Shown here: positions 885-52,337 of the stretch, piece by piece
Layout: each line of letters opens with the position of its first letter
How positions within the stretch are numbered: position 1 is the first letter of the stretch
IMG/VR virus record: IMGVR_UViG_3300025928_000002
Span: 1-58,128 of that record
Length of the DNA: 58,128 nucleotides
Source of the DNA: a virus
Reading direction: 5' to 3' (one strand)
Position numbers and translations under genes: made by a program
The notes under the pieces: generated by a model
What the model was told of the DNA's origin: nothing
What the model saw: only the letters and a program-made list of their open reading frames with translations
The model's database searches: none

Positions 885-2662
885 CCACTCGATACAAGAA
901 GCGGTTTGGCGGTTCGCTGCCCTGGGAGACGTTCCAGTTTCCGAAGTCCTTATCCGAGACGTGGATGCCGAGGGATGACGCGGCGCGCAACTCGGCCTAC
1001 GAGGGCTACAACTCGATGTACTGGAACGAGGACAATGCCTACTCGCTCCGGTGGATCGTCACCGAGCAGCCCGTGTACATACCGATACCTCGGATCATCG
1101 TCGACACGATGGCGCACTACCTGCTCAAGGGTCTTCAGATCGGGGTTCAAGATCCTGAGAAGAACAAGGCCCAGCAGCAGGATCTAGAGGACTTCCTCGA
1201 CAGGCAGCAGTTCCTGTCGAAGTTCCATGTCGCTAAGCACGACGGTTGCATCCGGGGCGACTACGTCTTCCATATGACAGCCAACGACGAGCTGCCTGCG
1301 GGACGACGCATCGCGATCTCATCCATCTACGCCGGCAAGGTCGTCCGCAAGTTCGACGACGACGACGGCGAGCTGATGACTGACGCGTGGATCGTCGAGC
1401 CGTACGAGTTCTCCGAGGGCGATGATCGCAGCAAGGACAGCAAGGATTATGTCCGTCGTCTGCACTACTGGTACTCCGACGCGGATAACGACGCTGATGA
1501 TCAGTCGCATGCGCTCGAGGAGGACGTCGATGAGGTACCTGCCCCCGACTCTACGGAGGCTAGGGAGGGGCTGAGCACCACACGACAGGTCATGCGTGCG
1601 CTCGAGATTCTCGAGGTGAACGAGAAGCTCTGGACGACCGAGGAGTCGGTGGTCGTGACGGAGATCGAGGATGAGCCTCTGCCCGCGCCGATCGACGTCA
1701 TACCGGTGTACTGGTTCAAGAACATCCCGACCGACGGTCAGCCCTTTGGCTCTTCGGACATACGCGGGTTCGAGAGAGGCATCCGCGGCATCTCTCAGGA
1801 GGCAACCGACCTCGGTGTGGGCCTGGCGTTGGATGGTCTGGGCACATTCGTCACCGATGCATCGCGACCTGTGGATGCGAATGGCAACGAGACTAGCTGG
1901 ATCATCGAGCCAGGCATGATCCTAGAGCTCCAGAATGGCACCTACTTCAAGCGTGTGGACGGCATCACCTCCATCACGCCGGCGCTAGACTGGATCAAGT
2001 ACTCTGAGGGTAAGATCGACGAGGCAGCCGGTCTATCCTCAGTAGCGGTCGGAGACGTTGACTCTCAGACCGCAAGTAATCCGATGGCACTCTCGATCAA
2101 GTTCCTGCCGACTTTGGCCAAGCTGCAGGAGCGAGAGGCCGTCGCGCTGGGCAACCTCAACAACATGTTCTGGGACTGGACCAAGTGGCGTGAGGCCTAT
2201 GAGGGTAAGTCCTGGCCCAAGAACGTGAAGCTGAGGATCGAACCCGGCGACAAGCTGCCTCAGGACAGAACCGCTCGCGTCAATGAGCTGAATAACATGC
2301 TCGATCGCGACATCATCTCCAAGGCGTACTATCGTCAGGAGATGGCTAAGCTCGGCTATGAGTTTCCGGATGATCTGCAGCAGCAGATCAACCAGGAGCT
2401 CGAGGATGAGCTTAAGTTCAATGTTCGGAAGGGACAACTGGCTAATCAGGCAGCTGAGACGGCTGCTACCCAACAGGGCGCCCAGGGTGATCCGGGGCAG
2501 ATGCCGCCAGGAGTCAACGGACAGAAGTCCACGACTCTGCCTCCTCCCGGCAACCAAAGCAACAACCAGAAGAAGCCCAACGAGAGCAAGGGCACTGAGT
2601 CCGGGCAACCGTTGGCCAAGCAAGCGAGGGGCGCGAGGCCCCCGGCGACTTCAAGAAGGTGA
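881..2662 (+). CDS. Portal protein
   Basis: 593 residues. It would form the dodecameric ring at the capsid vertex through which DNA enters and leaves. The call rests on position directly after the terminase (4-base ATGA overlap), on size, and on family-like features: an N-terminal region with hydrophobic strands, a central stretch with VYWFKNIPTD and SDIRGFERGIRGI, and a long helical, Gln/Asn/Pro-rich C-terminal tail (from about residue 520). The tail is basic and low in complexity at the end. No motif is diagnostic by eye, so the function follows mainly from synteny. Confidence 0.8.
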   Translation: MTTRYKKRFGGSLPWETFQFPKSLSETWMPRDDAARNSAYEGYNSMYWNEDNAYSLRWIVTEQPVYIPIPRIIVDTMAHYLLKGLQIGVQDPEKNKAQQQDLEDFLDRQQFLSKFHVAKHDGCIRGDYVFHMTANDELPAGRRIAISSIYAGKVVRKFDDDDGELMTDAWIVEPYEFSEGDDRSKDSKDYVRRLHYWYSDADNDADDQSHALEEDVDEVPAPDSTEAREGLSTTRQVMRALEILEVNEKLWTTEESVVVTEIEDEPLPAPIDVIPVYWFKNIPTDGQPFGSSDIRGFERGIRGISQEATDLGVGLALDGLGTFVTDASRPVDANGNETSWIIEPGMILELQNGTYFKRVDGITSITPALDWIKYSEGKIDEAAGLSSVAVGDVDSQTASNPMALSIKFLPTLAKLQEREAVALGNLNNMFWDWTKWREAYEGKSWPKNVKLRIEPGDKLPQDRTARVNELNNMLDRDIISKAYYRQEMAKLGYEFPDDLQQQINQELEDELKFNVRKGQLANQAAETAATQQGAQGDPGQMPPGVNGQKSTTLPPPGNQSNNQKKPNESKGTESGQPLAKQARGARPPATSRR

Positions 2663-2672
2663 GGTTGGCGTG

Positions 2673-3416
2673 ATGCCGACGATCTTCCACAAGCAGCAGC
2701 TCGAGCCCGCCTGGCTCCGATTCACCTACGTCGTGGGATACGACGAGGGTGAGGGGGGCGAAGGCGAGGGCGGCGCCGAAGGTGGCGATGGTGAGGGTGA
2801 GGAGGGTGACGGCGAGGGCGATGAGCCCGATGAGTCCACACCTGAGGGCCTGAAGAAGGCGCTGGATGCGGAGCGCAAGCTGCGCAAGACCGCCGAGCAG
2901 AAGCTCAAGATCGCCGCCCGCAAGGCTGCGAACCAGGCGGCGAAGGAGGGTGAAAGCGGCAAGAAGGGTGAAGGCGACGCGGGTCAGACCGGCCAGCAGG
3001 GTAACGGCGAGACCGACGCACGCATCGAGAAGCTGACCACGGCGCTGCGCAACAACTCGCTGCGCTCGACGATCAGCGAGCTCGCCTCCAACTTCTCAGA
3101 CCCCAGCGACGTCTACCGCTTCCTCGACACCGGCGCGTTCGACTACGAGCAGGACGCCGACGATCCGTCGGTGGTCGTGTGGGATGAGGCTGAGATTCGT
3201 GCGGCGATCAAGGATCTCGCCAAGCAGAAGCCCTACCTCCTGAAGGCTCCCGCCGGCGACGGCGCTCAGAGCCAGCGGCAGCGACGTGGTTCTTCGGGAC
3301 CCAAGTTCGCCGGCAGCGGCTCAGGCAAGCAGACTGGCGGCCTCAGCAACGCTGAGATCGCTCAAAGGTTTCCCGCGATGCGCACTGCAGTCCGGGCAGG
3401 TAACAAGAGTGAATGA
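2673..3416 (+). CDS. Scaffolding-like protein
   Basis: 247 residues, starting at the ATG at 2673 behind a GAAGGTGAGG ribosome-binding site. Residues about 20-60 are almost entirely Gly/Glu/Asp repeats, followed by a Lys/Ala/Glu-rich helical, coiled-coil-like segment (DAERKLRKTAEQKLKIAARK) and a C-terminal region with NAEIAQRFPAM. This acidic and helical build between portal and capsid genes is typical of phage scaffolding proteins, which shape the procapsid and then leave or are degraded. The open frame extends upstream inside the portal gene, but that part is a shadow. No protease gene was seen beside it. Confidence 0.65.
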   Translation: MPTIFHKQQLEPAWLRFTYVVGYDEGEGGEGEGGAEGGDGEGEEGDGEGDEPDESTPEGLKKALDAERKLRKTAEQKLKIAARKAANQAAKEGESGKKGEGDAGQTGQQGNGETDARIEKLTTALRNNSLRSTISELASNFSDPSDVYRFLDTGAFDYEQDADDPSVVVWDEAEIRAAIKDLAKQKPYLLKAPAGDGAQSQRQRRGSSGPKFAGSGSGKQTGGLSNAEIAQRFPAMRTAVRAGNKSE

Positions 3417-3427
3417 GGTGAACACGC

Positions 3428-4354
3428 ATGGGAGATCCGCGGTACGACAAGGTACCAGACGGCGGCACGTTCCGAGCCCCGCTCGCTGCTGACCTGTCCG
3501 GGCTGACGTCAGCGGGTGGCTTCGGTCCCAAGGCAGTCTGGCTCAACACCAGCGGCCAGGCCGTCTTCACAGAGGCGGCGGGCAACACCAGCGTCGTCGG
3601 TGTGCTGGTGAAGAACCTGGCCCAGTACCCCCGACTCGGCAACATCGTCGGCCAGACCAACCTGGCGATCCCGATCGGTGGTAAGGCTGGCGACATCGTC
3701 GACATCATGACCCAGGGCGAGATCGTGCAGCTGGGTCTGACCGCCGGTACGAACTACTACGCGGCGGCCGACGGCACGCTCAGTTCGAATCCGGCCGACG
3801 GCCCGATGATCGGCTGGACCGTCACGTCTGACCGACTGGTGGTTCGCTGCGCCGGTGACGTGAATGTGAACCGTGGAGGCGGCCTCACCGCCAATGGAGT
3901 CACGGTCGCCAACACGGTCACCGAGACCTCGCTGCAGTCCTACCAGCTCGACGCCAACGAGATCATCGGTGGTGAGATCTTCGAGCTGGAGCTCTTCGGC
4001 ATCTACAGCAACACCGGCACGCCGACCGCCACGATCAACATCCGGCTTGGGGGCACGGCCGGCACGCTGCTTGCGGCTGCGATCGTCACCACCCCGACGG
4101 CTGCGGCCAACGACGCCTTCCGAGTCAACGCTCGCGTGAACTTCCACTCGGCCACCAAGGCAGTCGCCACGGCGCGCGCGGAGTTCTCGACCCACACAAC
4201 CGATGTCGACGCCGTCGGCCTGGGCGGTTCCGCCGCTGAGGTCACCGTCGACACCACGACGGCCAAGACCCTGAACATGGACCTGGTGTGGGGCGCCGCT
4301 TCGGCTTCGAACACCCTGACCGTGCTCGGCGGCTCCGCCCGGCGCATCGCGTAA
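3428..4354 (+). CDS. Probable capsid decoration or accessory head protein
   Basis: 308 residues between the scaffold and the major capsid gene. The N-terminal half (about 1-145) has short beta-rich segments (VGVLVKNLAQYP, GDIVDIMTQGEIV) like the small head-decoration proteins often found here. The C-terminal half (about 150-308) is Thr/Ala/Gly-rich and beta-strand-like (ELELFGIYSNTGTP, TINIRLGGTAGT), suggesting an added exposed domain. It may bind capsid capsomers and stabilise the shell. The role is inferred from position and composition only. Confidence 0.5.
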   Translation: MGDPRYDKVPDGGTFRAPLAADLSGLTSAGGFGPKAVWLNTSGQAVFTEAAGNTSVVGVLVKNLAQYPRLGNIVGQTNLAIPIGGKAGDIVDIMTQGEIVQLGLTAGTNYYAAADGTLSSNPADGPMIGWTVTSDRLVVRCAGDVNVNRGGGLTANGVTVANTVTETSLQSYQLDANEIIGGEIFELELFGIYSNTGTPTATINIRLGGTAGTLLAAAIVTTPTAAANDAFRVNARVNFHSATKAVATARAEFSTHTTDVDAVGLGGSAAEVTVDTTTAKTLNMDLVWGAASASNTLTVLGGSARRIA

Positions 4355-4385
4355 CTACTAGAGAACCGAGAGGAGGAACTTCGAG

Positions 4386-5624
4386 ATGGATACTCTGCTC
4401 TACGGCGAGGTCCCGGTCGTCTACAGCAACCCGGTCACCCGCAAGAACATCTTCGCCCGCATGCTCGAGGGCGAGAACCTGCAGGACATGATGGTCCGAG
4501 GATTCGACGAGGGTACTCTCGAGCGCGGCGACGTGCTCGTGCAGGCCGCTGACGGCTCGGACATCAATGTCATCTGGAACGAGATCCAGGACATCCTGAG
4601 CATGTGGAACAGCCAGCGCAACCGGCTGATCGACTACCTCACGTTCCAGGTAACTGACGTCATCGACTACGTCGGCGTTCCCGTCGAGGTCGACTTCGAG
4701 CAGGCCTCGGAGTACGGCAAGCCCGTGGGTATCCGCGGTGGTGGGTTCTACACCCGGGGCTACGACTTCAAGTTCTACGACCTGGCGATCCGGTACACCT
4801 GGATGTTCCTGGCCGAGGCCACGCGGGCCCAGATCGACAACTACACCAACATGGCGCTCGAGGCCGACAACCGACTGATCTTCAAGAAGGTCATGTCGAC
4901 GGTCTTCAACAGCGCCAACGGCGCCGGCATCGCCGACCGGAACATCCCCACCACCGTGTACAAGTTCTACAACGGCGATGGTGAGGTTCCTCCGGCCTAC
5001 AAGAACATCACCTTCACCGGCTCCCACACGCACTACTACACGTCGTACGGCCTGCCGTCGCAGGTGCAGAACGCGGCGCTGCAGCCGGCCACGCTCGACG
5101 ACCTCGAGGACGAGTTCTACAACCACGGCTACACCCTCCAGAACGGCTACGACCTGGTGCTCTGGGTCAACCGCCAGGAGGGCAAGAAGATCCGTACCTT
5201 CAAGGTCGCCAACGGCGCCCGGTACGACTTCATCCCCAGCGCCGGAGTCGGCGGCGGTATCTACCAGCCGCAGTCGCTCGGCATCGTCGGCCGGCCTGAC
5301 GGGACGCCCGTCGACGGCGAGGTCGGCACCTACGGTCCGTTCCACGTGATCGAAGAGCCGTACATTCCCGCCGGCTACGTCTGCGCGCTGGTCTCCGGCG
5401 GTCAGCTCAACATCAACAATCCCGTGGGCATGCGCCAGCACACAAACCCGGTTTACCAGGGCCTCAAGCTGGTCAAGGGTCCTGACGGCTCGTACCCCCT
5501 GAGCGAGGCCTACTACCGTCGGGGCTTCGGCACCGGCGTCCGGCAGCGCGGCGGCGGCATCATTGTGCAGCTCGTCAACAGCACCACCACCACCTACACC
5601 GTCCCGACGGCATACAACCTGTGA
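4386..5624 (+). CDS. Major capsid protein
   Basis: 412 residues with a strong ribosome-binding site (AGAGGAGGA) upstream of the ATG at 4386. Position after portal, scaffold and decoration genes, length and an alpha/beta composition fit an HK97-fold major head protein. The codon choice is strongly GC-ending (C or G at nearly every third base), as expected for the most highly expressed late gene. A hairpin follows the stop at 5629-5666. No long N-terminal delta domain or protease site is obvious. Confidence 0.75.
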   Translation: MDTLLYGEVPVVYSNPVTRKNIFARMLEGENLQDMMVRGFDEGTLERGDVLVQAADGSDINVIWNEIQDILSMWNSQRNRLIDYLTFQVTDVIDYVGVPVEVDFEQASEYGKPVGIRGGGFYTRGYDFKFYDLAIRYTWMFLAEATRAQIDNYTNMALEADNRLIFKKVMSTVFNSANGAGIADRNIPTTVYKFYNGDGEVPPAYKNITFTGSHTHYYTSYGLPSQVQNAALQPATLDDLEDEFYNHGYTLQNGYDLVLWVNRQEGKKIRTFKVANGARYDFIPSAGVGGGIYQPQSLGIVGRPDGTPVDGEVGTYGPFHVIEEPYIPAGYVCALVSGGQLNINNPVGMRQHTNPVYQGLKLVKGPDGSYPLSEAYYRRGFGTGVRQRGGGIIVQLVNSTTTTYTVPTAYNL

Positions 5625-18718: not shown

Positions 18719-19291
18719 CTAGAGTCGATTGAGAGTATGATTTGGATCGGTAGGATGGGGCGAATCGAGGTGACCTAAGGCGATACGCCGCAGTCGCGTG
18801 GCGACTTCCCTAGCAAATCTTCGGTCATTCAACTCGTGGTTCAGGCCGCTGGGGTGGGGAAATTTGACCACCGCAAACTCACCGCCATCCACTAGCTGAA
18901 GGTCGAACCAGGGTGACTTGTGGGGCAGGTCGAAACCTCTCCACACCTTAGTGCCCAGCGCGACTACCACCACTGGGTTACCGCTGTCGATCCAGTCGTT
19001 GTACCCCTGGGGGGTGAGCTTGAGTCTTAAGTGAACGCGCATCCGACCCTTGAGATTCGCCACCCCCTCACGGGCCAGCGGTCGAGTCAGTTGACTAGAT
19101 CTGCACTTAGGGTCTGGGTTAAGCGGAAGTGGTTTAAGCAACAGGTTCTCTAGGTAGAAGAGTCGCTCCAGCTCGTCGCGAGTGTTGACTCCTAGCCACC
19201 TCATGACTGTGTTACCCGAAGGTCCGCTGAAGGCTCTACCATCGCCCTTAAGAGAGGGAGCTTGCCCCAGCAGAACTGGCTTTACTTGCAT
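18719..19291 (-). CDS. Uracil-DNA glycosylase-fold protein
   Basis: 190 residues on the reverse strand. N-terminal VLLGQAPSLKGDGRAFSGPSG and the late motif PHPSGLNHELND are the two signature regions of the UDG superfamily (phosphate/uracil pocket and the HPS loop); VVVVALGTKVW is the central strand. Such enzymes remove uracil or other altered bases from DNA. The first motif lacks the classic catalytic Asp/His of family 1, so substrate is open. It is separate from the UDG-like domain fused to the polymerase. Confidence 0.65.
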   Translation of the reverse strand: MQVKPVLLGQAPSLKGDGRAFSGPSGNTVMRWLGVNTRDELERLFYLENLLLKPLPLNPDPKCRSSQLTRPLAREGVANLKGRMRVHLRLKLTPQGYNDWIDSGNPVVVVALGTKVWRGFDLPHKSPWFDLQLVDGGEFAVVKFPHPSGLNHELNDRRFAREVATRLRRIALGHLDSPHPTDPNHTLNRL

Positions 19292-22308: not shown

Positions 22309-22865
22309 TGATCATCATAGAAGGCCCGGATGGCGCTGGCAAGACTACGCTTATCAACAACCTGTCGTCGTTCTTCGGGCTGCCTGTGGCGCCGAGGGTA
22401 GTACGTCAAGACACGACAGCGATGGTCAATTTGCGAGAGTGGGTTGACACTAATCTGGCGCAAGGCTTCCAGCCGACCATATTCGACCGCCATCGTCTCA
22501 TCTCAGAGCCCATCTACGGCACGATCCTGCCGAACAAGATCGTCGACAACGACTTCTGGGATCGGCGATGGCTCAAGGAGGCGATGGCCAAGTTCCACGA
22601 CATCCGCCCTCTGGTCGTGTACTGCCTCCCGCCACTCGGCACTGTGGTCAGAAACATAGTCGACGACCCAGATAACCAAGAGGTCCGCCCTCACATCGCC
22701 CAGATATATCGGGCATATGTAGCCCAGGCTGCCCGCTCGTCGAACTGCTATGTGTGGGACTACACCAAGATCGGCGATGTATCTGGTCAACATGAGATAC
22801 TCGCAAGCCTCCTGTACAAATCCGTCGAGCGAGTGAAAGAAGGCCGTCGTGACTGGTGGAACTGA
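22308..22865 (+). CDS. dNMP/thymidylate kinase-like P-loop kinase
   Basis: 185 residues from the ATG at 22308, overlapping the previous stop. N-terminal IIIEGPDGAGKTTLINNL is a Walker A loop of the nucleotide-kinase type; FDRHRLISEPIYG is the DR(Y/H) motif found in thymidylate and dNMP kinases. It would phosphorylate deoxynucleoside monophosphates to diphosphates. Neighbours (dUTPase/dCTPase-like, two TS-fold proteins, dCMP deaminase) suggest its substrate may be the modified monophosphate made by the phage, as gp1 does in T4. Confidence 0.75.
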   Translation: MIIIEGPDGAGKTTLINNLSSFFGLPVAPRVVRQDTTAMVNLREWVDTNLAQGFQPTIFDRHRLISEPIYGTILPNKIVDNDFWDRRWLKEAMAKFHDIRPLVVYCLPPLGTVVRNIVDDPDNQEVRPHIAQIYRAYVAQAARSSNCYVWDYTKIGDVSGQHEILASLLYKSVERVKEGRRDWWN

Positions 22866-23328
22866 AGAGCTCCCCTACCGGGGTGCGAAGGTGATCGTGG
22901 CAGAGGCCAGTCCGGGCTACCTCTTCTTCGACAAACTCGCCACCATATTCGCGGGCCAGCAGCAGCTCATGGATCGTTACTACGACATCGAGAAGCAGGG
23001 TGGCTTCTCTTTCCCAGTGCCGCAGGATGAGCTGGGTGAACTAGACTTCTGTCTCGTGCAGGCAAGATTGCATGAGATGTTCGGCTTCACGGTACGAGAG
23101 CTCAGCGAAGCCATGCAGGAGCTGCGATGGAAGCCGTGGAAGCAGAAGTGGACGCCGACCGACCGCGAGAAGTTCGCTGAGGAGATGGCCGACGCGCTGC
23201 ACTTCTTCGTGGAGATGTGCATCACCGCCGGCATGACCGCGGAGGATCTGTTCAACGCCTACTTCCGAGCATGGCAGAAGAATAGAGGCAGACAGGACAA
23301 TGGATATTCAGACACCTCCGTCTCTTAA
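22849..23328 (+). CDS. dUTPase/dCTPase-like (all-alpha NTP pyrophosphatase)
   Basis: 159 residues with a GTG start overlapping the kinase gene by 17 bases. ELSEAMQELRW, EEMADALHFFVEMC and WQKNRGRQDNGY are the metal-binding EExxD-type helices and the KNxxRQ..GY tail of the dimeric dUTPase branch of the MazG superfamily, which also includes T4 dCTPase-dUTPase. It hydrolyses dUTP and perhaps dCTP to the monophosphate, feeding the adjacent TS-fold enzymes and lowering unmodified pools. Confidence 0.75.
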   Translation: MTGGTEELPYRGAKVIVAEASPGYLFFDKLATIFAGQQQLMDRYYDIEKQGGFSFPVPQDELGELDFCLVQARLHEMFGFTVRELSEAMQELRWKPWKQKWTPTDREKFAEEMADALHFFVEMCITAGMTAEDLFNAYFRAWQKNRGRQDNGYSDTSVS

Positions 23329-23461: not shown

Positions 23462-24470
23462 CGCCCCGACCCTGAGCGAGCTCCACACCCGCATGTGTCT
23501 GAGTCTCGCTTACGCCAGCGAGGATCAACTCGACACTGCGTCGGTCATCGACGTCTCTCAGCACAACGTGCTGGCCACCGCGGACACGCTCGACTGGGAG
23601 TTTGACCTCAAGACGCTCTGGTTGACTAAGTCCCGATGGACCATGATGGTCAACCAATACCTCAACGCCGAGGACGTCAAGGCTTGGCTCGCCCAGTGCA
23701 TGAAAGTCGGCTCTAAGGGTCGGGGGCAAGCGACTCTCCGCACCAAGACCGTGAAGTCCGAAGGCGGTCGGGCGAATGGCATGACCAACAAAGAGCGGCG
23801 GCGGTGGGGATCGTGCATGCTCGCCATCGTCTACAAGGCCTTGCCGACTCCGACCATCACTCTCCACAGCCGCACGTCCTACCTGGGGTACCTGTCAGCC
23901 CTGGACGTCAGTGTGGCTCAGAAGCTCGGCGCTTACGTCGCGGATCTGATTGGCCTGACCGTCAGCGATATCGGTTTCGTCTGGCAGATCGACTCGATAC
24001 AGTACCACTCATTCAAGTCACTGGCCTTCTTGCTCTCAAATGAGGACCCGTCCATTCGTAAGTTTGGACGCCGAGTCCTACTGCTGCCGGAGTCGAAGCT
24101 CAACGAGGACGAGCGGATCTTCGCTAACGCCCCAGCTATTCGGGGCAGTAGGCTCTGGCTAGCCAAGGTACGCCGTGAAGACCAAGGGGGTGTTACTTAC
24201 GGACAGATGAGCTACAACACCTATAGGCGCATCCGCCGGCGGTGGCATACAGAGGTCCGAGGGTATGACTTCGGCGAGCAGTTCGAGGGCCCCAAGATCC
24301 TCAAGGATGGCACTGAGGGCGCTGAGTTCTTCAAGCGCTACCTGCCTCTGCCCAACGTCTACGTCTCGACGCTCGACCTGACGACTCTCAAGTTGCCCAG
24401 AGACTACCTCGCTGATATCATGGAAGGTGTAGAGGTAGAGGTCGACTCAGACGATGAGGAGGAAGAGTGA
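23439..24470 (+). CDS. Thymidylate-synthase-fold protein, first of two (Asp at the Asn site)
   Basis: 343 residues with a TTG start (23439 or 23442). WGSCMLAIVYKAL provides a Cys 19 residues before the Arg of TLHSRTSYLG, close to the 20 in TS (E. coli C146 to R166). Eleven residues after that Arg is Asp (LSALD), where TS has the Asn that selects dUMP and dCMP hydroxymethylases have Asp. GFVWQIDSIQY matches the TS FVW...H.Y strand, though the His is Gln. The N-terminal part is divergent. Likely a deoxynucleotide (hydroxy)methyltransferase or an inactive partner of the next gene, whose start overlaps its stop. Confidence 0.6.
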   Translation: MLTSHTYSAPTLSELHTRMCLSLAYASEDQLDTASVIDVSQHNVLATADTLDWEFDLKTLWLTKSRWTMMVNQYLNAEDVKAWLAQCMKVGSKGRGQATLRTKTVKSEGGRANGMTNKERRRWGSCMLAIVYKALPTPTITLHSRTSYLGYLSALDVSVAQKLGAYVADLIGLTVSDIGFVWQIDSIQYHSFKSLAFLLSNEDPSIRKFGRRVLLLPESKLNEDERIFANAPAIRGSRLWLAKVRREDQGGVTYGQMSYNTYRRIRRRWHTEVRGYDFGEQFEGPKILKDGTEGAEFFKRYLPLPNVYVSTLDLTTLKLPRDYLADIMEGVEVEVDSDDEEEE

Positions 24471-25381
24471 TCACGGTAGGTTCACGATCGTTCGACATGA
24501 TCATGTCCGAGCTCGCTGAGCATCTGAACTACCTGGCTCAACCTGTGGAGAGTCAGACGTGGCAGTCCCAGAGCACCGATGGCCGCACAGGCATGAGACT
24601 CACCTGGGAGCTCGAGGACGTCGCGGTCAACATGCATGTGCCGGGTACTGTCGCGATGATGGCTGAGCTGACATCACCTAATCTGCCATGGGCTGACATC
24701 CACTTCCAGGAGCGCGTCGGTGGCAATCCAGTGAACCCTCCGCCATCTCATGCGATCTGGCCCCATCGGCAGCAAGGCAACCAGGAACATCTTGGAGCTG
24801 ACCTGAAGTTCTCCCACACCTATCCGGAGCGATACTGGCCCACTCATGCCGGCCATAGGCCCGAGCAGTGCGGTGTGGGACCGAACGGCACGTCGACCTG
24901 CGAGTTCGGCCCTACCTTCGGCGTTCGATATGAGTATGGTGACCTGTTCGATGTCGTGAATCTCCTCGAGCGGGATCCAACTACTCGACAAGCGTATCTG
25001 CCGGTGTGGTTCCCAGAGGACACTGGCGCCGTGTTCAATCAGCGAGTTCCCTGCACTCTGGGCTACTGGTTCCGCATTCGCAAAGGGCACCTCCACTGTA
25101 CCTATCACATGAGGTCCTGTGACTACCTTCGCCACATGCGTGACGACGTGTATCTTGCGATGCGTCTCATGGACTGGATCTGCAACCGGCTCAACGACCT
25201 GTCTTATCTGGCAACTGAGGGGGTCGATCCGAGTCGCCATCTCAGTCTGTTGATTCCCGGCCGATTAACCATGAACATCGGGTCGCTTCACATCTTCGAC
25301 GGTGACCGGGCCAACATGAAGGATCTATCACGACGCCTGAGTCGTAAGGCGTCCGAGCGAGTCATGGGAGCGATGGGATGA
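24467..25381 (+). CDS. dCMP hydroxymethylase/thymidylate synthase family, second of two
   Basis: 304 residues, GTG start overlapping the previous stop. The TS core is clear: VVNLLERDPTTRQAYLPVWF, then VPCTLGYWFRIRKGHLHC with the nucleophile Cys, YHMRSCD exactly 20 residues later, and LTMNIGSLHIF for the D.H.Y strand. Eleven residues after the Arg is Asp (RDD), in place of the Asn of TS. That change is the known switch from dUMP to dCMP, as in T4 gp42. Expected reaction: addition of a methylene-folate carbon to C5 of dCMP. Product could be 5-hydroxymethyl- or 5-methyl-dCMP. The dCMP deaminase start overlaps its stop. Confidence 0.75.
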   Translation: MITVGSRSFDMIMSELAEHLNYLAQPVESQTWQSQSTDGRTGMRLTWELEDVAVNMHVPGTVAMMAELTSPNLPWADIHFQERVGGNPVNPPPSHAIWPHRQQGNQEHLGADLKFSHTYPERYWPTHAGHRPEQCGVGPNGTSTCEFGPTFGVRYEYGDLFDVVNLLERDPTTRQAYLPVWFPEDTGAVFNQRVPCTLGYWFRIRKGHLHCTYHMRSCDYLRHMRDDVYLAMRLMDWICNRLNDLSYLATEGVDPSRHLSLLIPGRLTMNIGSLHIFDGDRANMKDLSRRLSRKASERVMGAMG

Positions 25382-25878
25382 CCTCCGATGAGCGACCCTC
25401 ACGCGACGATATACTGATGCTCTCTGCGAATCTCTGGGCACGCCGTAGCAGCTGCTCACGATCGCACATCGGCGTCGTCATCGCGTCGACCGACGGCAGG
25501 ATTCTGATTACCGGTTACAACGGCGCTCCGGCCGGCATGCAGCACTGTAACCACAACTGCACGTGCAGGTATGTTAGTCGTGAAGCGTTTGAATCGGCTT
25601 CGCTAGGCCATTTTCTCGAATGCCCCGCGGATAAGCCCTGTCTAATCTCTGTACATGCAGAGGCCAACGCTATCGCCCGTTGTGCGATGGAGGGCATACG
25701 TATCGGTGGGTCTCAGATCTTCACCACCTTCTCGCCCTGTGTCCCTTGCGCCCAGCTCATCATCAGCTCTGGCATCTCTCGAGTGGTGTGGGGTCAAGAG
25801 TATAGGGATCATCGCGGCCTGGATCTACTTGACCAAGCGGGGCTAGAGGTGGTAAAATATGGGCATGAGACGGACTAA
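25378..25878 (+). CDS. Deoxycytidylate deaminase
   Basis: 166 residues, ATGA overlap with the previous gene. Zinc and catalytic motifs are complete: HAEANAIARCAMEG and SPCVPCAQLII; an extra CNHNCTC segment resembles the second zinc site of phage dCMP deaminases. It converts dCMP to dUMP, the precursor of dTTP. Next to two enzymes predicted to use dCMP, it may set the split between thymidine and modified cytidine synthesis. A leaderless promoter for the next gene lies inside its 3' end. Confidence 0.9.
   Translation: MTSDERPSRDDILMLSANLWARRSSCSRSHIGVVIASTDGRILITGYNGAPAGMQHCNHNCTCRYVSREAFESASLGHFLECPADKPCLISVHAEANAIARCAMEGIRIGGSQIFTTFSPCVPCAQLIISSGISRVVWGQEYRDHRGLDLLDQAGLEVVKYGHETD
25829..25864 (+). 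promoter_or_regulatory. Leaderless promoter for gene at 25865
   Basis: TTGACC (25829-25834), 18 bases, TAAAAT (25853-25858), six bases, ATG at 25865. It lies inside the deaminase coding sequence and fits the spacing rule seen at nine other genes. Confidence 0.6.
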
Positions 25879-43684: not shown

Positions 43685-44809
43685 TTTTGGGGCTGTCTAG
43701 GGAAGCGTGATCGACTCTTTAGTCGATCGGGATAGGCCTTCATGACGAATGATGCATGGGGGCCTATCTTGCTGTCTAGGGATTGATGATATCGAATCGT
43801 GATTGGGAGTTGGGTCACTCTTATCTTGTTGGGGGGTGATAGTGAGGCTTATTCTAACCCGGGGGCTGCGGGTGCGGGTGATGGTGGTGTACAGGGTATA
43901 GCGTGCGTGAGGACGTGAATAACAACGGGGGGTGGAAGATAGGTTCGAAGCAAACAATGGGTACGAGCGGACTAAGATTACAACGGTCATATCCACGTAA
44001 AATCTACGGGGTAGTGCTTAACACTCAACGGACTACATAGTAACACACAGCGGACCACTTTCTCAAAACGCCCACACAGGGTAAGGCCGCACCCGTTTGA
44101 CATGAGTACGTTGTTCGAAACGTCGACGGGCGCGGGTAAAGGAACTTTCCGCCCTGTAGCGACTGTAAAATTCAGGTAAAACTCCCAAATCATCTCAAAA
44201 AGGGATTGATATCATCAAATAAATTGATTGATATCTCAAAAAAAGCCCGTTCTTATGCGGTAAGAGTCTCGCGCCGGCGCGTCGCCGGGCGCCAGCGCAT
44301 ATAGCGCCCCTGCACGTCATACGCACGCGAGTGAGAGGGCCGTAGAATCATAAATTAATGCAGTCGTTATAACTTGTCATCCGCCTGACAGTGTCCGATT
44401 CGCGAAAAACGAGTCGTCTTGTCGCATAAATCGGTTGACATTTGTCGAGGTCGCACAAATTGAACAGATAAGACGTATACAATCAACTGGAAACGGATTT
44501 TAGTTTCGAAAATTCCAGACTGATCTAGGATATAACCTGAAAACCATCCAAATTGGACATATCCTGGGATACTGCCCGGAGAATGATCGGTTAGGGGGCT
44601 ATGAATGGCCCACTTCAATACTACCATACGTGGCAAGGTTTGTCAAGGCTGCGCAGGATACAACTTGCCCAGGAGCCGCGGCGATATAGATGGCGCGCAC
44701 GCGCGAATATCATTGATCGATAAAAAAGTAAAGGTTCCTGGGCGATCGATGGCTAATCGTTATTCATAAAGGGTCTTCAAAAGTCGTCCGTTTTAAGGTG
44801 ATTTGGAGC
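43685..44809. other. Long low-GC noncoding region
   Basis: More than 1.1 kb with no convincing gene. Base composition drops sharply. TTGATATC occurs twice at about 44207-44232 with A/T-rich sequence between. Other features are a GC-rich patch with GCGCC repeats (about 44270-44310), one copy of the AACTGGAAACGGAT element (44478-44516), and AGGATAT/ATATCCT inverted pairing near 44530-44570. It may hold an origin, a regulatory region or host-derived sequence. Confidence 0.6.
44478..44516 (+). repeat. AACTGGAAACGGAT element, copy A
   Basis: The first 22 bases (TACAATCAACTGGAAACGGATT) recur exactly at 46437, and the following T-rich/AATTC part is similar. Each copy lies in a noncoding stretch. 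Confidence 0.75.
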
Positions 44810-44844: not shown

Positions 44845-44890
44845 ATGAACGAGGGGGGAATCGCCCCCCACAAGGGAAGGATTGAATATC

Positions 44891-45301
44891 ATGGCCACCG
44901 CGAAGACCGCCTTCACCGCCGCCACCCTCGCCGCCGAGTTCGGGACCAACCCGAAGGAGCTGCGCAAGTTCCTCCGCACCCCCGAGTCCGGGATCGAGCC
45001 GGTCGGCAAGGGCGCCCGCTACAACATCGAGCTGACCCCCGCCGCGACGACCAAGCTGCGCAAGAAGTTCCAGGACTGGTCCGCGGCCGCCGAGAAGGCG
45101 CGCGAAGAGCGGAAGCAGATGCTCGAGGACGCGGCCGCGAACAAGCTCAACGTCCTGACGATCGCGGTCGAATCGGAAGTGGTTGAGACCGACGACGAGG
45201 TCCCGGCCGAGGAGCTCGACTTCGAGAACATGACCGACGCCGACATCGAGGCCGCGCTCGACGAGATCGTCGCCGAGGACGCCGAGAAGGATGAGGCCTG
45301 A
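44891..45301 (+). CDS. LRKFLR-type DNA-binding protein
   Basis: 136 residues from the ATG at 44891 (GGGAAGG ten bases upstream); a TTG at 44882 is less likely. Residues about 8-50 (TLAAEFGTNPKELRKFLRT...VGKGARYNI) match the N-terminal domain of the 33467 protein almost position for position. Then a basic helix, and an acidic C-terminus from about residue 95. Strong GC-ending codon bias, unlike the surrounding island, suggests high expression. Likely a nucleoid-type or regulatory protein. Confidence 0.65.
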   Translation: MATAKTAFTAATLAAEFGTNPKELRKFLRTPESGIEPVGKGARYNIELTPAATTKLRKKFQDWSAAAEKAREERKQMLEDAAANKLNVLTIAVESEVVETDDEVPAEELDFENMTDADIEAALDEIVAEDAEKDEA

Positions 45302-45627: not shown

Positions 45628-45948
45628 ATGAACAAATACATTGAAGCCTCGCTCAAGATCGACCTCGCGCAGGTGATCACCGCGCTTGCCGAAGAGTTGA
45701 TCGACGTCACCGACCTCTGGCAGGTGATCACCGACCCGCCGACGAACGAGGAAGATCTCATGGACTTCATCGATCGCGACGACATACAGCAGCTATACTT
45801 CGTGATCAAGACGGTCAAGAGCTTGACCAAACATCTCGACCCGATGCTCATGGTATCCCTGCGCAAGCAGCTCGTTGTTCTGCAAGAAGAGAATGAATGC
45901 GACACCTGCGGGGGGACTCTGCTGATCAGCTGCACTTGCGAGGGCTGA
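45628..45948 (+). CDS. Hypothetical acidic protein with C-terminal zinc-type cysteines
   Basis: 106 residues, leaderless. Helical body (IDLAQVITALAEELIDVTDLW) and a Cys cluster at the end (ECDTCGGTLLISCTCEG), four Cys in a ribbon-like pattern. Enriched in Asp/Ile codons of GAT/ATC type like its neighbours. Unknown function. Confidence 0.6.
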   Translation: MNKYIEASLKIDLAQVITALAEELIDVTDLWQVITDPPTNEEDLMDFIDRDDIQQLYFVIKTVKSLTKHLDPMLMVSLRKQLVVLQEENECDTCGGTLLISCTCEG

Positions 45949-46027: not shown

Positions 46028-46396
46028 ATGAGCGGCGCATACAACATCACGACCCTGAAGCGCAAGATCTCACCCAAGAAGGTGCTCATGTGGTCACTCG
46101 CCGGCCCCGTCGCGATCTTCGCGCTCTTCATCATGATCGCGCTGGGTGTGGGATTCGCGCAAGCGATCGGCAGCAACCACTCGCCCAACCAGATCACGAT
46201 CGAGAAGACAAACTCGATGTACGACGACTGCGTGACCTTCGCGAACGCTCGCGGGTACTCAAGCGACATATGCGAGTCGCTCACTCACACCGACAAGACC
46301 GTCTCAAGCTTCAACGACGGCTTCGTGACATCTAAGCAGGACGACTGCCAGCAGGGCGACGCGAAGGCATGCGAATGGGTTAAGACCAACGACTGA
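46028..46396 (+). CDS. Membrane-anchored protein with four-Cys exported domain
   Basis: 122 residues. A basic N-terminus (KRKISPKK) precedes one membrane segment (VLMWSLAGPVAIFALFIMIA); the rest has four Cys (DDCVTF, DICES, DDCQQ, ACEW) that could form disulfides outside the cell. A type II anchored surface protein expressed from its own promoter could alter phage adsorption or exclusion. The role is inference. Confidence 0.6.
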   Translation: MSGAYNITTLKRKISPKKVLMWSLAGPVAIFALFIMIALGVGFAQAIGSNHSPNQITIEKTNSMYDDCVTFANARGYSSDICESLTHTDKTVSSFNDGFVTSKQDDCQQGDAKACEWVKTND

Positions 46397-46432: not shown

Positions 46433-46436
46433 TGTC

Positions 46437-46533
46437 TACAATCAACTGGAAACGGATTCTTTTTTCGGAAATTCTGGATTATTCCATATATGGCTCATGT
46501 CGAACATGTCCCATATGTCCGTTTCCACTTGAT
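46437..46533 (+). repeat. AACTGGAAACGGAT element, copy B, in a large palindrome
   Basis: ATCAACTGGAAACGGA (46441-46456) pairs with TCCGTTTCCACTTGAT (46518-46533), one mismatch in 16. Inside are CCATATATGG and CATG/CATG pairings. The first 22 bases equal copy A at 44478. Confidence 0.7.
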
Positions 46534-46612
46534 CGAGATGGTTTTCCGATCAATCTCATTGTATCATGATCGCGCCCCCTCGTCAAGGAGGTAAAACGGT
46601 GTTTTGAGGCAT

Positions 46613-46657
46613 GATGTTTTGACCTGCATATCTAAGATATCCGAGTGCAAACATCTT
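46613..46657 (+). repeat. GATGTTTT palindrome, copy 1
   Basis: GATGTTTTGACCTG, a central ATATCTAAGATAT, then a tail with GCAAACATC pairing back to the start. Closely related to 47381-47427. Confidence 0.65.
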
Positions 46658-46711
46658 GCTCCTGCGCCCCTTATTTACTTGATCGATAATAAAAGATCTT
46701 GTAAAAACCCC

Positions 46712-46746
46712 TTGCGCATGCGCGCGCGAGGGGGTATCATTAAAGC
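46712..46746 (+). promoter_or_regulatory. Leaderless promoter for gene at 46747
   Basis: TTGCGC (46712-46717), 17 bases ending GGGGG, TATCAT (46735-46740), TAAAGC, ATG. Confidence 0.7.
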
Positions 46747-46989
46747 ATGAACATTCGATTGATCGATCTCGATTATCTCGCGCGCATCGATCGCGCGATT
46801 GCGCAGGGGAAACCGATCATCAAGAAGTCCGATCACCCCTATCCCGATGAGGGCATGATGTTTTGCCCCGAATGCGACAGCAAGATCGACTACTTCGATG
46901 ATCGTGATCATCTGATCATCAACCCGAGCGATTCCGATCACGCATTCATCGCAATCTGTTGCGAGGGATATCATCCCCTTGCGATATAA
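46747..46989 (+). CDS. Small zinc-ribbon-like protein
   Basis: 80 residues, leaderless. MMFCPECDSKIDYFDDRDH and FIAICCEGYH supply CxxC and CC plus His. Coding sequence dense in GATC. One of four small genes of the same build between 46.7 and 48.1 kb. Unknown function. Confidence 0.6.
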   Translation: MNIRLIDLDYLARIDRAIAQGKPIIKKSDHPYPDEGMMFCPECDSKIDYFDDRDHLIINPSDSDHAFIAICCEGYHPLAI

Positions 46990-47000
46990 CTGATCATGCC

Positions 47001-47046
47001 CGATGCGCAGGGGGCAAAAGATCTTGAACTGCCCCCTTGCGCATCG
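47001..47046 (+). terminator. Terminator overlapping the next promoter
   Basis: CGATGCGCAGGGGGCA (47001-47016) pairs with TGCCCCCTTGCGCATCG (47030-47046) with one bulged base. The right arm contains the -35 TTGCGC (47037-47042) of the next promoter. Confidence 0.7.
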
Positions 47047-47065
47047 CGCATCGATCCCCTATAAT
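47037..47065 (+). promoter_or_regulatory. Promoter for gene at 47106
   Basis: TTGCGC (47037-47042), 17 bases, TATAAT (47060-47065), perfect -10. The leader is about 34 bases with GAAGGGA. Confidence 0.7.
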
Positions 47066-47105
47066 TTAATTAATCGATCAAAAATGATTCGAAGGGAATC
47101 TGATC

Positions 47106-47339
47106 ATGCGCCAGATCGAAGTGATCGCATACGAACTGCTCTCGATGCCCGAGGTCGCCGATCTTCGCGCGACGCGCGACGCGATCGAGCTCGCGGATCT
47201 GATCATCAACAACGGCCCCGACGCGCTGATCACTTTTCTCGATGACAAACTCGATCTTGACGACGACGATGCATGCATTGAGATCATGGACGAACTGCGC
47301 GAGATCATGACCGAGATGATCTTGCACCCAGTCGACTGA
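47106..47339 (+). CDS. Small acidic helical protein
   Basis: 77 residues, Asp/Glu/Ile/Leu-rich and fully helical (VIAYELLSMPEVADLRATRDAIELADLI...DACIEIMDELREIMTEMI). No Cys motif. Its DNA holds about twelve GATC sites. Acidic small proteins of this kind can act as DNA mimics or inhibitors of host enzymes, but there is no direct evidence here. Confidence 0.6.
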   Translation: MRQIEVIAYELLSMPEVADLRATRDAIELADLIINNGPDALITFLDDKLDLDDDDACIEIMDELREIMTEMILHPVD

Positions 47340-47380
47340 TCATCAATGCCCTGATTCCTCCCCCAGGGGGGTTGAGGGGC

Positions 47381-47427
47381 AAGATGTTTTGACCTGGATA
47401 TCTTAGATATCCCGGCTAAAACATCTT
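47381..47427 (+). repeat. GATGTTTT palindrome, copy 2
   Basis: AAGATGTTTT (47381-47390) and AAAACATCTT (47418-47427) are perfect complements; inside, GGATATC/GATATCC. Shares GATGTTTTGACCTG and the ATATCT.AGATATCC core with copy 1. Confidence 0.75.
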
Positions 47428-47473
47428 GTCGCAGGGGGCGAATGAGGGGGTTCAAATTACTCGCGGGTAACCC

Positions 47474-47508
47474 TTGACGTAGGGGGTTGCGCATGCGATG
47501 ATTAATGC
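47474..47508 (+). promoter_or_regulatory. Leaderless promoter for gene at 47509
   Basis: TTGACG (47474-47479), 17 bases, GATGAT (47497-47502), TAATGC, ATG. AACCC before and GGGTT after place the -35 in a small hairpin loop. Confidence 0.65.
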
Positions 47509-47817
47509 ATGACGAACGATGAACTGATCGAACACCCGATGCGCACGAACGCGATCATCGCAACTGCGCGATCGATGAACATCTCTGACTCTGATCTTCT
47601 CTCTTACGCGATCGACGCGATCGACGAACTCGATCATCACGCTTACGACGCGCTCGACGATCCGCGCATCTCGATCATTCTGATCATCAACGCATTGACG
47701 GGATCTGACGACGATCACGACGACATGATCCATGATCTCACGCACGCGCTGAACATGATCGACAAATGCACCGATCATCCCCAAAACTGCGCATCTTGCT
47801 GCGATCTCGATGATTAA
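47509..47817 (+). CDS. Small Asp/Ile/His-rich protein
   Basis: 102 residues, leaderless. Helical and very acidic with DDDHDDMIHDLTHALNMIDK and a C-terminal HPQNCASCCDLDD (three Cys). Coding DNA is packed with GATC (about 17 sites). Unknown function; possible metal binding through His/Asp/Cys. Confidence 0.6.
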   Translation: MTNDELIEHPMRTNAIIATARSMNISDSDLLSYAIDAIDELDHHAYDALDDPRISIILIINALTGSDDDHDDMIHDLTHALNMIDKCTDHPQNCASCCDLDD

Positions 47818-47824
47818 AACATCT

Positions 47825-47860
47825 CCCCCGCGCCCCCTTGACGAACAGGGGGCGCGGGGG
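47825..47860 (+). terminator. Perfect hairpin with the -35 of the next promoter as its loop
   Basis: CCCCCGCGCCCCC (47825-47837), loop TTGACGAACA, GGGGGCGCGGGGG (47848-47860): 13 of 13 pairs. The loop contains TTGACG, the -35 element of the following leaderless promoter. Confidence 0.8.
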
Positions 47861-47873
47861 GTATGATTAAGGC
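47838..47873 (+). promoter_or_regulatory. Leaderless promoter for gene at 47874
   Basis: TTGACG (47838-47843), 18 bases, TATGAT (47862-47867), TAAGGC, ATG. Confidence 0.7.
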
Positions 47874-48062
47874 ATGAACTCGATCGAACGACTCGCTTGC
47901 CGAATGATCGACGCTATGCCGATCTCCTTCTACGAATCGCGCGCTGCATTGATCCCTTATTATACACTGATTTACACGCCGCTGCGACTGCTTGATCTCC
48001 GACGCAATATTCGATCATTCCTCGCCGACGCGATCATGGAAAACTCCGATCATCTCGACTGA
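47874..48062 (+). CDS. Small hypothetical protein
   Basis: 62 residues, leaderless. Helical with two mildly hydrophobic stretches (LIPYYTLIYTPLRLL). Last of the four small GATC-rich genes, with its own terminator. Unknown function. Confidence 0.55.
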   Translation: MNSIERLACRMIDAMPISFYESRAALIPYYTLIYTPLRLLDLRRNIRSFLADAIMENSDHLD

Positions 48063-48068
48063 TCACTG

Positions 48069-48087
48069 CCCCCGCGCAATGCGGGGG
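48069..48087 (+). terminator. Terminator after the 47874 gene
   Basis: CCCCCGC, loop GCAAT, GCGGGGG, six bases past the stop. Confidence 0.7.
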
Positions 48088-48119
48088 TAAGATCATGTGT
48101 GCGTAAGATCGGTGTGGGA

Positions 48120-48528
48120 TGATATGGTATAGGGGTTTATATGGGGCGCCTTATATATGCCCTTATATGGATGCATCATATATCCGATCATATATCATTG
48201 ATTGATAATGATATGCATGCATTGATATCATCCGCATCATGCATCTATGCATATGATGCATCTGCATGCATATATCCCCTTCTGATATGCAATGCGAATC
48301 GATATCCTATATATCCTTATTCATCCAGATTGTTTCCATCTATCCATATTCATATGCATTCCTGTGAGATTGGATGAGTCATGGTCATGTGAGATGCGTG
48401 AGATGAGATGGGATGCATGTCCGTTATGAACCCCCCCGGGTGGAAACGTGGGGATAAATCCGATCCCCATCTTTCGGACGATGTCTCAGACCGGCTACCT
48501 ATCTCCCGTGGGAGCCATTATTCAATAA
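48120..48528. other. A/T-rich region of ATGCAT/GATATC/TATAT words
   Basis: About 400 bases. 48125-48380 is made almost wholly of short overlapping words (ATGCAT, GATATC, TATATG, CATATA), then a G/C part with TGGGGAT/ATCCCCA near 48450. The 78-residue open frame inside is low in complexity and not believed. An origin or regulatory site is possible. Confidence 0.55.
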
Positions 48529-51068: not shown

Positions 51069-52337
51069 ATGGCCGCGTCGGGCGGATACAGCCGCGTACA
51101 CCACACTGCGGCGCCGCAGGCTCCTGAGCCTAAGAAAGCCAAGGAACGTCGGCTGCGTCGGGAGCAGCTGGCCATGGGCCTAGACGTCATAGAGCCTGGT
51201 CACCCGCTCTACGAGCCCCCTTATGAGCGCGACACCGGCGACCAGAACGTGCGTCACTACCCGGACGGCCAGTACCACCCTGACGACAAGGATATGCTGG
51301 GCGAGGACGGCATCTCCACGGGCGAGTTCTGGAAGAGGCGCAGGCAGCTTCGCCGGGTGTGGGAGCCTGAGCCGGTGCCGCCGGTGATCATAGACTTCAC
51401 CGAGGTCAAGGAGCCGCTGTTTCCTCACCTGCTGCATCCTAGCCATAGCAGGTCTATGGCTCCCAACGCAGAGCTCTGGCGGGAGGCCATCGCTGAGGCG
51501 CGTCGGCGATTCCCCGGCAAGAAGAACGTAGAGGATGAGATACAGCGAAACTGCTATCTCTGGGATCGCATGGACGCTGGCACGCTGCCGGCCGACTTCA
51601 ACCCATACCCGCCCAAGTCGGACAAGCATGCAGCCTTCGCAGAACGCATCGTGCTGGCGGACGACAGGCCCCGAGACACCACCTATGACTACCTGCTGAC
51701 CACCCGGCAGACGCGTCGCCGCGCTAAGCGCAAGCTGGCCAAGGGGTTGCACCTCAGCGACGAGGAGTTCTCGCTTCTCTTCAGGCCGATCGAGGAGTGG
51801 TCGCTGGAGGAGCTGTCTGACGGCTACCCCCACAGCGACCTGACCGGCGCTAAGCTGGCCGCCACCGCCACATCCTCTCTCTTCAGGGGCGAGCTGCGCG
51901 ACAAGGTCAAGACCGAGCTTGAGCGGCGCATCAAGGACCGCTTGGACAAGCTGACCGTGACCGCCACAGACGCGCTGGGCGACGTCATGAAGAACGCTGA
52001 GCTTGACGGTCGTGGTCGTCCGATCGTGCCGGCGTCGGCTAAGCTCCGGGCGGCAGAGTATGTGCTTGACCGCATGATGGGCAAGCCGACTATACGCACC
52101 GAGAGCGAGCTGTCCACGAAGCTCACCGCAGTGCTGGCCGAGGTCATGGTGGCGCCTGAGATGAGACTCACTGAGGACGGCGTCGTGCCCACCGGCCAGC
52201 TGCTCGCCGGGCAGCGTGGTCGCCGGCAGGACCACCAGGACGACGTGCTTGACCGCGTGTACCGTAGCACGATCGGTCATGAGGTCAGGGCGCTAGAGGG
52301 CATCATGGACGCTGAGGTGATCGACGATGGAGAATGA
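51069..52337 (+). CDS. Basic helical protein, possible terminase small subunit-like
   Basis: 422 residues. Charged throughout. The N-terminal 120 residues are basic and Pro-rich; the middle has RRRAKRKLAKGLHLSDEEFSLLF, helix-turn-helix-like; the end of the helical core, IVPASAKLRAAEYVLDRMMGKPTI, matches the AAExILDRxxGKP pattern often seen at the end of terminase small subunits. It is much longer than usual for that family and lies 5 kb before terL, so the call is tentative. Confidence 0.4.
   Translation: MAASGGYSRVHHTAAPQAPEPKKAKERRLRREQLAMGLDVIEPGHPLYEPPYERDTGDQNVRHYPDGQYHPDDKDMLGEDGISTGEFWKRRRQLRRVWEPEPVPPVIIDFTEVKEPLFPHLLHPSHSRSMAPNAELWREAIAEARRRFPGKKNVEDEIQRNCYLWDRMDAGTLPADFNPYPPKSDKHAAFAERIVLADDRPRDTTYDYLLTTRQTRRRAKRKLAKGLHLSDEEFSLLFRPIEEWSLEELSDGYPHSDLTGAKLAATATSSLFRGELRDKVKTELERRIKDRLDKLTVTATDALGDVMKNAELDGRGRPIVPASAKLRAAEYVLDRMMGKPTIRTESELSTKLTAVLAEVMVAPEMRLTEDGVVPTGQLLAGQRGRRQDHQDDVLDRVYRSTIGHEVRALEGIMDAEVIDDGE

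Follow-up and report, generated by a model that had tools for sequence, protein, structure and literature searches.

The DNA under study is the IMG/VR virus record IMGVR_UViG_3300025928_000002, 58,128 nucleotides (nt) long and analysed over its full length (hereafter the window); it carries an actinobacteriophage gene set, and its DNA polymerase is nearest to that of Curtobacterium phage Shrew (∼50% identity). We considered a block of four short genes, g1 to g4, at 46661–48120, which is saturated with the word GATC and in which the coding strands of g3 and g4 are almost free of the dinucleotides AG, GG and GT. Genes with an AG/GG/GT count below 0.25 of expectation were called strict; this threshold, as well as the promoter and Shine-Dalgarno (SD) patterns, was set after the first strict genes had been seen. 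The features of the block are the following (aa, amino acids).

46712–46740, plus strand: promoter-like TTGCGC-17-TATCAT of g1, 6 nt before the ATG, predicted leaderless
46747–46989, plus strand: g1, 80 aa, Cys-rich and ribbon-like, leaderless by its promoter pattern, with homologues in the IMG/VR phages L008 and L009
47106–47339, plus strand: g2, 77 aa, acidic (net charge -16), leader with an SD-like GAAGGGA, not strict, 11 GATC
47474–47502, plus strand: promoter-like TTGACG-17-GATGAT of g3, 6 nt before the ATG, predicted leaderless
47509–47817, plus strand: g3, 102 aa, acidic (net charge -19), strict, 17 GATC
47825–47860, plus strand: hairpin after g3, C-arm then G-arm, holding most AG/GG/GT of the g3 transcript, paired in the fold
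47838–47867, plus strand: promoter-like TTGACG-18-TATGAT of g4, 6 nt before the ATG, predicted leaderless, overlapping the g3 terminator
47874–48062, plus strand: g4, 62 aa, strict, 8 GATC, with a homologue in L008 (45% identity over 53 aa)
48067–48089, plus strand: hairpin after g4, CCCCC arm then GGGGG arm

By these patterns g1, g3 and g4 would be leaderless early genes under sigma70-type promoters, with a -10-like hexamer near the ATG and no SD, whereas g2 would not.

Loss of AG, GG and GT from the coding strand

Against synonymous resampling (with the codon usage of the window phage throughout), AG/GG/GT were seen twice in g3 where 19.2 were expected and once in g4 (17.0 expected), with milder depletion in g2 (15 against 29.0) and g1 (19 against 28.2). 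Both occurrences in g3 belong to a single GGG, and the minimum among 300 resampling draws was 10. The IMG/VR relatives gave 0 against 27.9 in L045, 0 against 24.3 and 0 against 11.3 in L043 and 4 against 18.5 in the g4 homologue of L008; in Shrew the counts were 2 against 37.3 (gp8), 0 against 19.9 (gp9) and 0 against 18.4 (gp10, taken as an open reading frame, ORF, starting one codon earlier). Composition shuffles of the clean stretches would leave 51, 59, 49 and 102 AG/GG/GT, compared with 2, 0, 0 and 0 seen.

Runs of the coding strand free of these pairs extend over 214 and 146 nt in g3 (one break) and 167 nt in g4; they reach 618 nt in Shrew, 420 nt in L045 and 597 nt in L043, where the run takes in two genes with their spacer. 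The longest run elsewhere in the window is 52 nt (1–44000) or 47 nt (48600 to the end), and 64 nt in the 59 kb of Shrew outside its repeat; 40 kb of Zuko contain no run of at least 50 nt, and in 30 kb of SPO1 the longest runs are 66 and 65 nt on the two strands. In Triscuit the dinucleotide depletion is weak.

The rule holds within codons and across codon boundaries, with boundary counts of 0 against 11.4 expected in L043 (100 aa) and 0 against 16.4 in L045. Of the four phages that have strict genes, three (the window, L043 and L045) follow it on the sense strand only: AC/CC/CT, the complementary pairs, number 80 against 76 expected in L043, 121 against 92 in L045, 42 against 47 in g4 and 61 against 75 in g3. 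Here we observed what dinucleotide suppression at RNA level should look like, a depletion confined to the sense strand and exceeding what codon usage and protein explain; Shrew is not sense-only, as it lacks AC/CC/CT too, both strands obey and every C stands in KCR. A 576-nt stretch of Shrew has none of AC, AG, CC, CT, GG and GT, and a first-order chain lacking these six steps predicts its triplets and repeat content. RNA folding of the Shrew stretches was not stronger than that of dinucleotide shuffles (z 0.56 and 0.26).

A symmetric rule for six dinucleotides (AC/GT, AG/CT, CC/GG) was tried and rejected; it fits Shrew only, CC/GG being little or not depleted as duplex elsewhere. The proteins of Shrew gp8–gp10 (L029, 2225–3174) are without any Gly, Pro, Val or Thr, an extreme case found in a deposited, isolated phage.

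The letter G itself was not lost. It still makes up ∼20% of g3, g4 and the L045 gene, nearly all of it in permitted contexts; in strict genes nearly every G occurs as TGA, TGC, CGA or CGC, and the encoded proteins have almost no Gly, Val or Trp. The replacement is by C in GC-rich L045 (CC 52 against 33) and by A/T in Shrew (AT 76 against 39 in gp8); since the replacement letters differ between phages, the loss of the pairs rather than one type of mutation would be the target.

In g1 and g4 the clean stretch starts at the leaderless ATG (within 2 nt), just after a promoter spacer with GGGGG; g1 is clean over its first ∼60 nt and only moderately depleted as a whole. At the other end, the first G-rich pairs after the L045 ORF form the 3′ arm of the terminator hairpin, and the same is true after g3 and g4.

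Among promoter-led ORFs of 14 loci, 7 of 37 leaderless ones were strict and none of 71 SD-led ones, which has a chance of ∼4 in 10,000 (arithmetic on counts; the SD-led set includes chance ORFs, while Shrew gp10 and a 43-aa L043 gene are in neither class). The non-strict leaderless genes were also low in AG/GG/GT, chiefly over the first 30 nt (0.42 of the expected count for the 27 of 37 left after removal of those below 0.5, compared with 0.92 in SD genes).

GATC counts and controls

A hand count in the original prediction had put about 57 GATC in about 1,460 bases; the recount of 46661–48120 gave exactly 57, with ∼12 being usual at the phage's own rate (8.0/kb in the big genes of the genome). 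That the sites lie both in genes and between them proved half right: 46 are within the four ORFs, 9 within spacers and 2 across a gene end, but two of the five spacers, 47340–47508 and 47818–47873, have none. The suspicion that codon content is insufficient was borne out by the very control proposed for it, as codon-shuffled genes never reached the observed density. For the four ORFs (80, 77, 102 and 62 codons) the 46 sites compare with a mean of 26.2 and a maximum of 35 in 5,000 synonymous shuffles within each gene, with 17.7 (maximum 32) when codons were resampled from the usage of the phage's large genes and with 15.3 (maximum 26) when codon order was shuffled. The sites present come close to the most that the protein permits (g2, 11 of 11; g3, 17 of 18; g4, 8 of 9).

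The excess became smaller once dinucleotides were modelled. When protein and codon counts were kept and none of the six pairs was allowed to exceed its observed count, 36.8 sites were expected in g1–g4; with protein, codon counts and dinucleotides held, GATC was still the most over-represented of 256 four-letter words (46 against ∼37–38, z 3.3–3.9), and the two-strand count was 114 against 93 expected from the block's own trinucleotides. Dinucleotide avoidance and the accompanying codon choice account for about half of what exceeds the codon shuffle (26 to 37–38), and for a greater part of what exceeds the level usual for the phage. No word is avoided more than GACC, and before a C the codon GAT is therefore chosen. 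GATC does not result from the AG/GG/GT rule taken alone; avoidance of CC and the genes' own codon choice are needed. GATC as primary target was dropped as the main cause after these conditional shuffles, though a residue stays.

Other words are affected as well: GGCC, CCGG, AGCT, CTAG, GTAC, ACGT and ACCA are nearly missing, AGCC is rare, and GATC, GCGC, CGCG and CATG are enriched two- to five-fold. A similar small GATC excess was seen in two genes upstream, u1 and u2 (14 together against ∼9, with protein, codon counts and dinucleotides held), and in the L008/L009 genes (38 against 30); there was none in the block of the same kind in Shrew (15 against 16.9) or in that of L043 (2 against 3.4).

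Candidate explanations

None of the three main readings, a ribonuclease (RNase), avoidance of pairing with the anti-Shine-Dalgarno (anti-SD) sequence or an enzyme acting on DNA, is proved. The one we favour, tentatively and at a little under an even chance, is that the mRNA has been selected to evade a factor recognizing RG/GK in single-stranded RNA, most simply an endoribonuclease. The bias of the coding strand, the indifference to codon boundaries and the near-zero tolerance together point to the message itself as the target, and a cutter is preferred because a binding preference would tolerate weak sites.

The scheme would run as follows. The repeat block would hold short, mostly separately promoted early genes of an actinobacteriophage. 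A factor, either from the host (a defence or a toxin) or a shut-off enzyme of the phage itself, would attack or capture single-stranded RNA at a G with a purine before it or G/U after it, and the strict messages would have to work while it is active in the infected cell. One cut would kill a message, so tolerance would be near zero and G-rich dinucleotides would persist mostly in terminator stems. The small, mostly acidic products might act in that phase, for instance as inhibitors; for g3 and the L045 protein, a mimic of DNA or RNA (Ocr- or barstar-like) would call for a small acidic protein with a matching fold. GATC saturation could arise in good part from the same selection, the steps GA, AT, TC and CG being still allowed and GAC|C being swapped for GAT|C. 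Single-sequence models of the g3 and L045 proteins were all-helical at low confidence (mean pLDDT 46 and 53).

Pairing of the remaining sites gave divided evidence. Mean pairing probabilities of Gs in the AG/GG/GT left in the transcripts were 0.96 in g3 and 0.91 in g4, compared with 0.82 and 0.83 for other Gs; toxin RNases are described as cutting single-stranded RNA only (accessible text of PMC5408214). Weighing against an RNA-directed factor, the excess pairing is nil in L045 (0.82 against 0.81), and in Shrew the few exceptions pair less (0.62 and 0.59) than the remaining Gs do (0.79). Several further points count on the same side. Shrew obeys the rule on both strands, which avoidance centred on G in RNA would not require. 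Clean stretches exceed the transcript, reaching the -35 side in L045 and Shrew and partly in g3, and continue ∼65 nt past the terminator in L043. Thirty of the 37 leaderless genes, g1 included, stand at 0.42 of expectation or above and are not strict. The synonymous expectations of all phages rest on the codon usage of one of them. Forbidding AG/GG/GT alone, with the phage's usual codons, yields 6.1 GATC in g3 against 17 seen, and 8–10 sites beyond the dinucleotide-held expectation are left unexplained. No RNase of this specificity was found among 50 proteins of the window and relatives scanned with Pfam, most of which matched nothing, and we know of no RNase with AG/GG/GU (RG/GK) specificity.

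Suppression of CpG and UpA in RNA viruses (ZAP, RNase L) is an avoidance of dinucleotides at RNA level thought to provide escape from an RNA-sensing or RNA-cutting defence. The phage genes would be alike in the level at which avoidance acts; they differ in the pairs concerned (AG, GG, GU), in near-absolute strictness and in being confined to a handful of short DNA-phage genes. MazF mRNA interferases cut single-stranded RNA sequence-specifically, leaderless messages are favoured once the anti-SD is removed and PPE genes are poor in MazF-mt3/mt7 sites (accessible text of PMC5408214); MazF sites have at least three bases (ACA, UUCCU), in contrast to the present two-base rule centred on G. RegB of T4 is an early phage endoribonuclease that inactivates messages at GG^AG, with RNA structure giving protection (accessible text of PMC3014915); it needs GGAG/U, as described there, and would not forbid GU or a lone AG. 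No RegB homologue was present among the proteins scanned. We found no description of phage dinucleotide avoidance of this kind in the accessible literature on leaderless genes, SD avoidance, endoribonucleases, interferase-resistant messages, terminal repeats and GATC over-representation, which is weak evidence of absence as most subscription journals were outside its scope.

One could speculate, and we would call it possible but doubtful, that an unknown RNA-directed defence or shut-off enzyme of actinobacteria or phages destroys single-stranded RNA at any AG, GG or GU, and that these phages encode ‘immune’ messages, which have lost every such pair between start codon and terminator and make the first counter-measures while all other RNA is cut. 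Such a system, known by its footprint, would be the prokaryotic equivalent of the antiviral immunity that senses dinucleotides. Genes nearly free of three of the 16 dinucleotides, at the cost of almost no glycine, valine and tryptophan, point to unusually strong and precise selection. If the agent is an RNase, the missing pairs would give its specificity, the strict genes would be candidate inhibitors, and a so far unseen layer of phage–host conflict could be tested with one isolated phage, Shrew, on its isolation host Curtobacterium flaccumfaciens NRRL B-729; a ribosomal cause would tell something new on how leaderless messages are chosen.

The latter explanation, unlikely in our estimate, is that leaderless messages were purged of pairing with the 16S tail, leaving the 5′ AUG as the sole place where ribosomes start. 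Every strict promoter-led ORF is indeed leaderless, the non-strict leaderless genes are depleted near the start, and AG, GG and GU together presumably hit every triplet of AGGAGGUG. The ban, however, covers pairs outside any SD-like triplet (1 observed against 78.8 expected in eight strict genes); TGA and TGATC, which we take to match the 16S tail further on, are abundant, and a two-base match provides little binding energy.

Somewhat less likely still is a strand-specific process on DNA (a deaminase, a nickase or other) that acts on template-strand C outside KCR by mutation or cutting. It would suit the two-strand pattern of Shrew, the clean stretches that leave the transcript and the strand flip of L043 inside a non-coding tract (4350/4352). 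On the other hand, L045 swapped G for C and not for A, unlike C-to-T deamination, and G remains at ∼20%; reading frames are intact, in g1 and g4 no more than 2 nt separate the beginning of the clean stretch from the start codon, with GGGGG nearby, and the differences between Triscuit and Huwbert show no skew in substitution polarity.

The original prediction had suggested that an activity which binds or modifies GATC might have shaped the block, or that the block might act as a cluster of regulatory or origin sites. As the main cause this lost ground, about half of the excess going with the modelled dinucleotides, and we now regard a cluster serving such an activity (origin, Dam/SeqA-like or modification) as improbable: the top rank of GATC among 256 words and the small excesses in u1+u2 and L008/L009 speak for it, but Shrew and L043, both stricter on the dinucleotide rule, have no excess, two spacers have no site, and no methylase was seen among the window proteins scanned (a subset of all). 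GATC selected also between genes and conserved in relatives, as in a Dam/SeqA-type system, was not what we found.

The further suggestion of a source genome with very different words fared no better. Low-complexity or foreign DNA, arising by slippage, as de novo genes or by import, is hardly probable: non-coding tracts beside the genes are of low complexity with phage-specific words, yet homologues of g1 and g4 occupy the same place in related phages, promoter style is shared, and the letters by which the phages comply are not the same (L045 uses C, Shrew A/T). The Shrew block fits a first-order chain; slippage and simple repeats were rejected for it, as there is no surplus of repeated 6- to 10-mers. 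Least probable of all is avoidance of restriction sites in first-entering DNA, for which T5 is a precedent and which the position in a putative terminal repeat and the depletion of six four-base palindromes would favour, since GATC, GCGC, CGCG and CATG are over-represented, three phages follow the rule on one strand only and palindromes are not depleted as a class on both strands.

Putative terminal repeat and neighbouring features

Features to the right of the block are the following.

48063–48426, no strand: non-coding tract, few AC/GT/AG/CT and much AT
48427–48438, plus strand: conserved site TGAACCCCCCCG, which in Shrew, Huwbert and Triscuit lies 51 bp short of the terminal repeat's right end
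51069–52337, plus strand: terminase small subunit homologue, used to find relatives

The deposited genome of Shrew has an exact direct terminal repeat at 1–4512 with the site at 4461, and that of Huwbert one at 1–3811 with the site at 3760, each 51 bp from the end. Microbacterium phage Triscuit, a singleton, has a published 3,795-bp terminal repeat (accessible text of PMC7302621), and its site at 3744 is again 51 bp from the end; it is alike in repeat architecture and in the TGAACCCCCC site, and unlike in its weak depletion, of which that text makes no mention. As the distance is 51 bp in all three, the end of the repeat in the window is predicted at 48478, with the block inside. We infer that the GATC-rich block belongs to a direct terminal repeat of the phage, of which the window contig would carry one copy. 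In T5 (AY543070) the pre-early genes belong to a long direct terminal repeat, the first part of the DNA to enter (first-step-transfer DNA); unlike the present phages, its first 40 kb are without such clean runs, the longest being 79 and 82 nt on the two strands.

TGAACCCCCC was found in 10 of 17 IMG/VR records searched. The order g1 homologue, non-coding tract, TGAACCCCCCCG is shared by the window, L008 and L009; the terminase small subunit gene follows in L008 and L009, while in the window other small genes intervene. A terminase-large-like ORF at 6–884 (by eye) opens the contig and the small subunit is at 51 kb; the record seems to have been opened at an arbitrary genome position and its terminal repeat to have been collapsed.

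The non-coding tract has no AC/CC/CT at 48073–48149 and no AG/GG/GT on the plus strand at 48170–48327. The tract before TGAACCCCCC forms a large quasi-palindrome whose first arm is rich in G and lacks AC/CC/CT and whose second is rich in C and lacks AG/GG/GT, the rule changing strand over a few bases (window 48073–48327; L042 16020–16310; L043 4557–4104, minus strand, with the strand switch at 4350/4352). In L032 (6140–6320, minus strand) low-complexity GGTATG/GGGGTA-like units resembling repeated spacer/-10 elements precede the TGAACCCCCC site, and Shrew (L029, 3290–3430) resembles them. Rfam gave one small nucleolar RNA match in the window (48212–48274, 33 bits, below the cut-off of 50), taken as chance in low-complexity DNA.

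Searches beyond these relatives returned little. The blocks of the window and of Shrew had no real blastn match among 50,697 phage records beyond Shrew itself; in viral contigs, the L045 gene and the shared promoter pattern were found in their own contig only, and the DNA polymerase and g2 gave nothing. For g1 the match to PHROG 6422 (Lar-like restriction alleviation protein, E=0.039) was not above the cut-off that would make it Lar-like, that to the Pfam PhnA zinc ribbon scored 21.0 bits, under the cut-off of 30.8, and a search of one genome per species found no relative of the family.

Early genes to the left of the block are the following.

44882–45301, plus strand: small helix-turn-helix or Lsr2-like early protein, weak profile matches
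45628–45948, plus strand: u1, 106 aa, an early gene nearby with only mild depletion and 24.9 GATC/kb
46028–46396, plus strand: u2, 122 aa, SD-led, weak DNA match to gene 80 of Streptomyces phage Jevington

An element around ATCAACTGGAAACGGA recurs among the early genes, direct at 44475–44515 and 46434–46474 and inverted at 46518–46533. Two copies of a dyad, CAAGATGTTTTGACCTGGATATCTTAGATATCC...AAAACATCTTG, at 46610–46658 and 47380–47428 (80% alike over 61 nt), sit in the spacers before g1 and after g2, possibly as operator or terminator. Elsewhere the window has an unusually full pyrimidine gene set (18719–19291, minus strand; 22849–23328; 24467–25381; 25378–25878), with uracil-DNA glycosylase-, dUTPase- and thymidylate-synthase-like members by Pfam and a dCMP-deaminase-like one by eye only.

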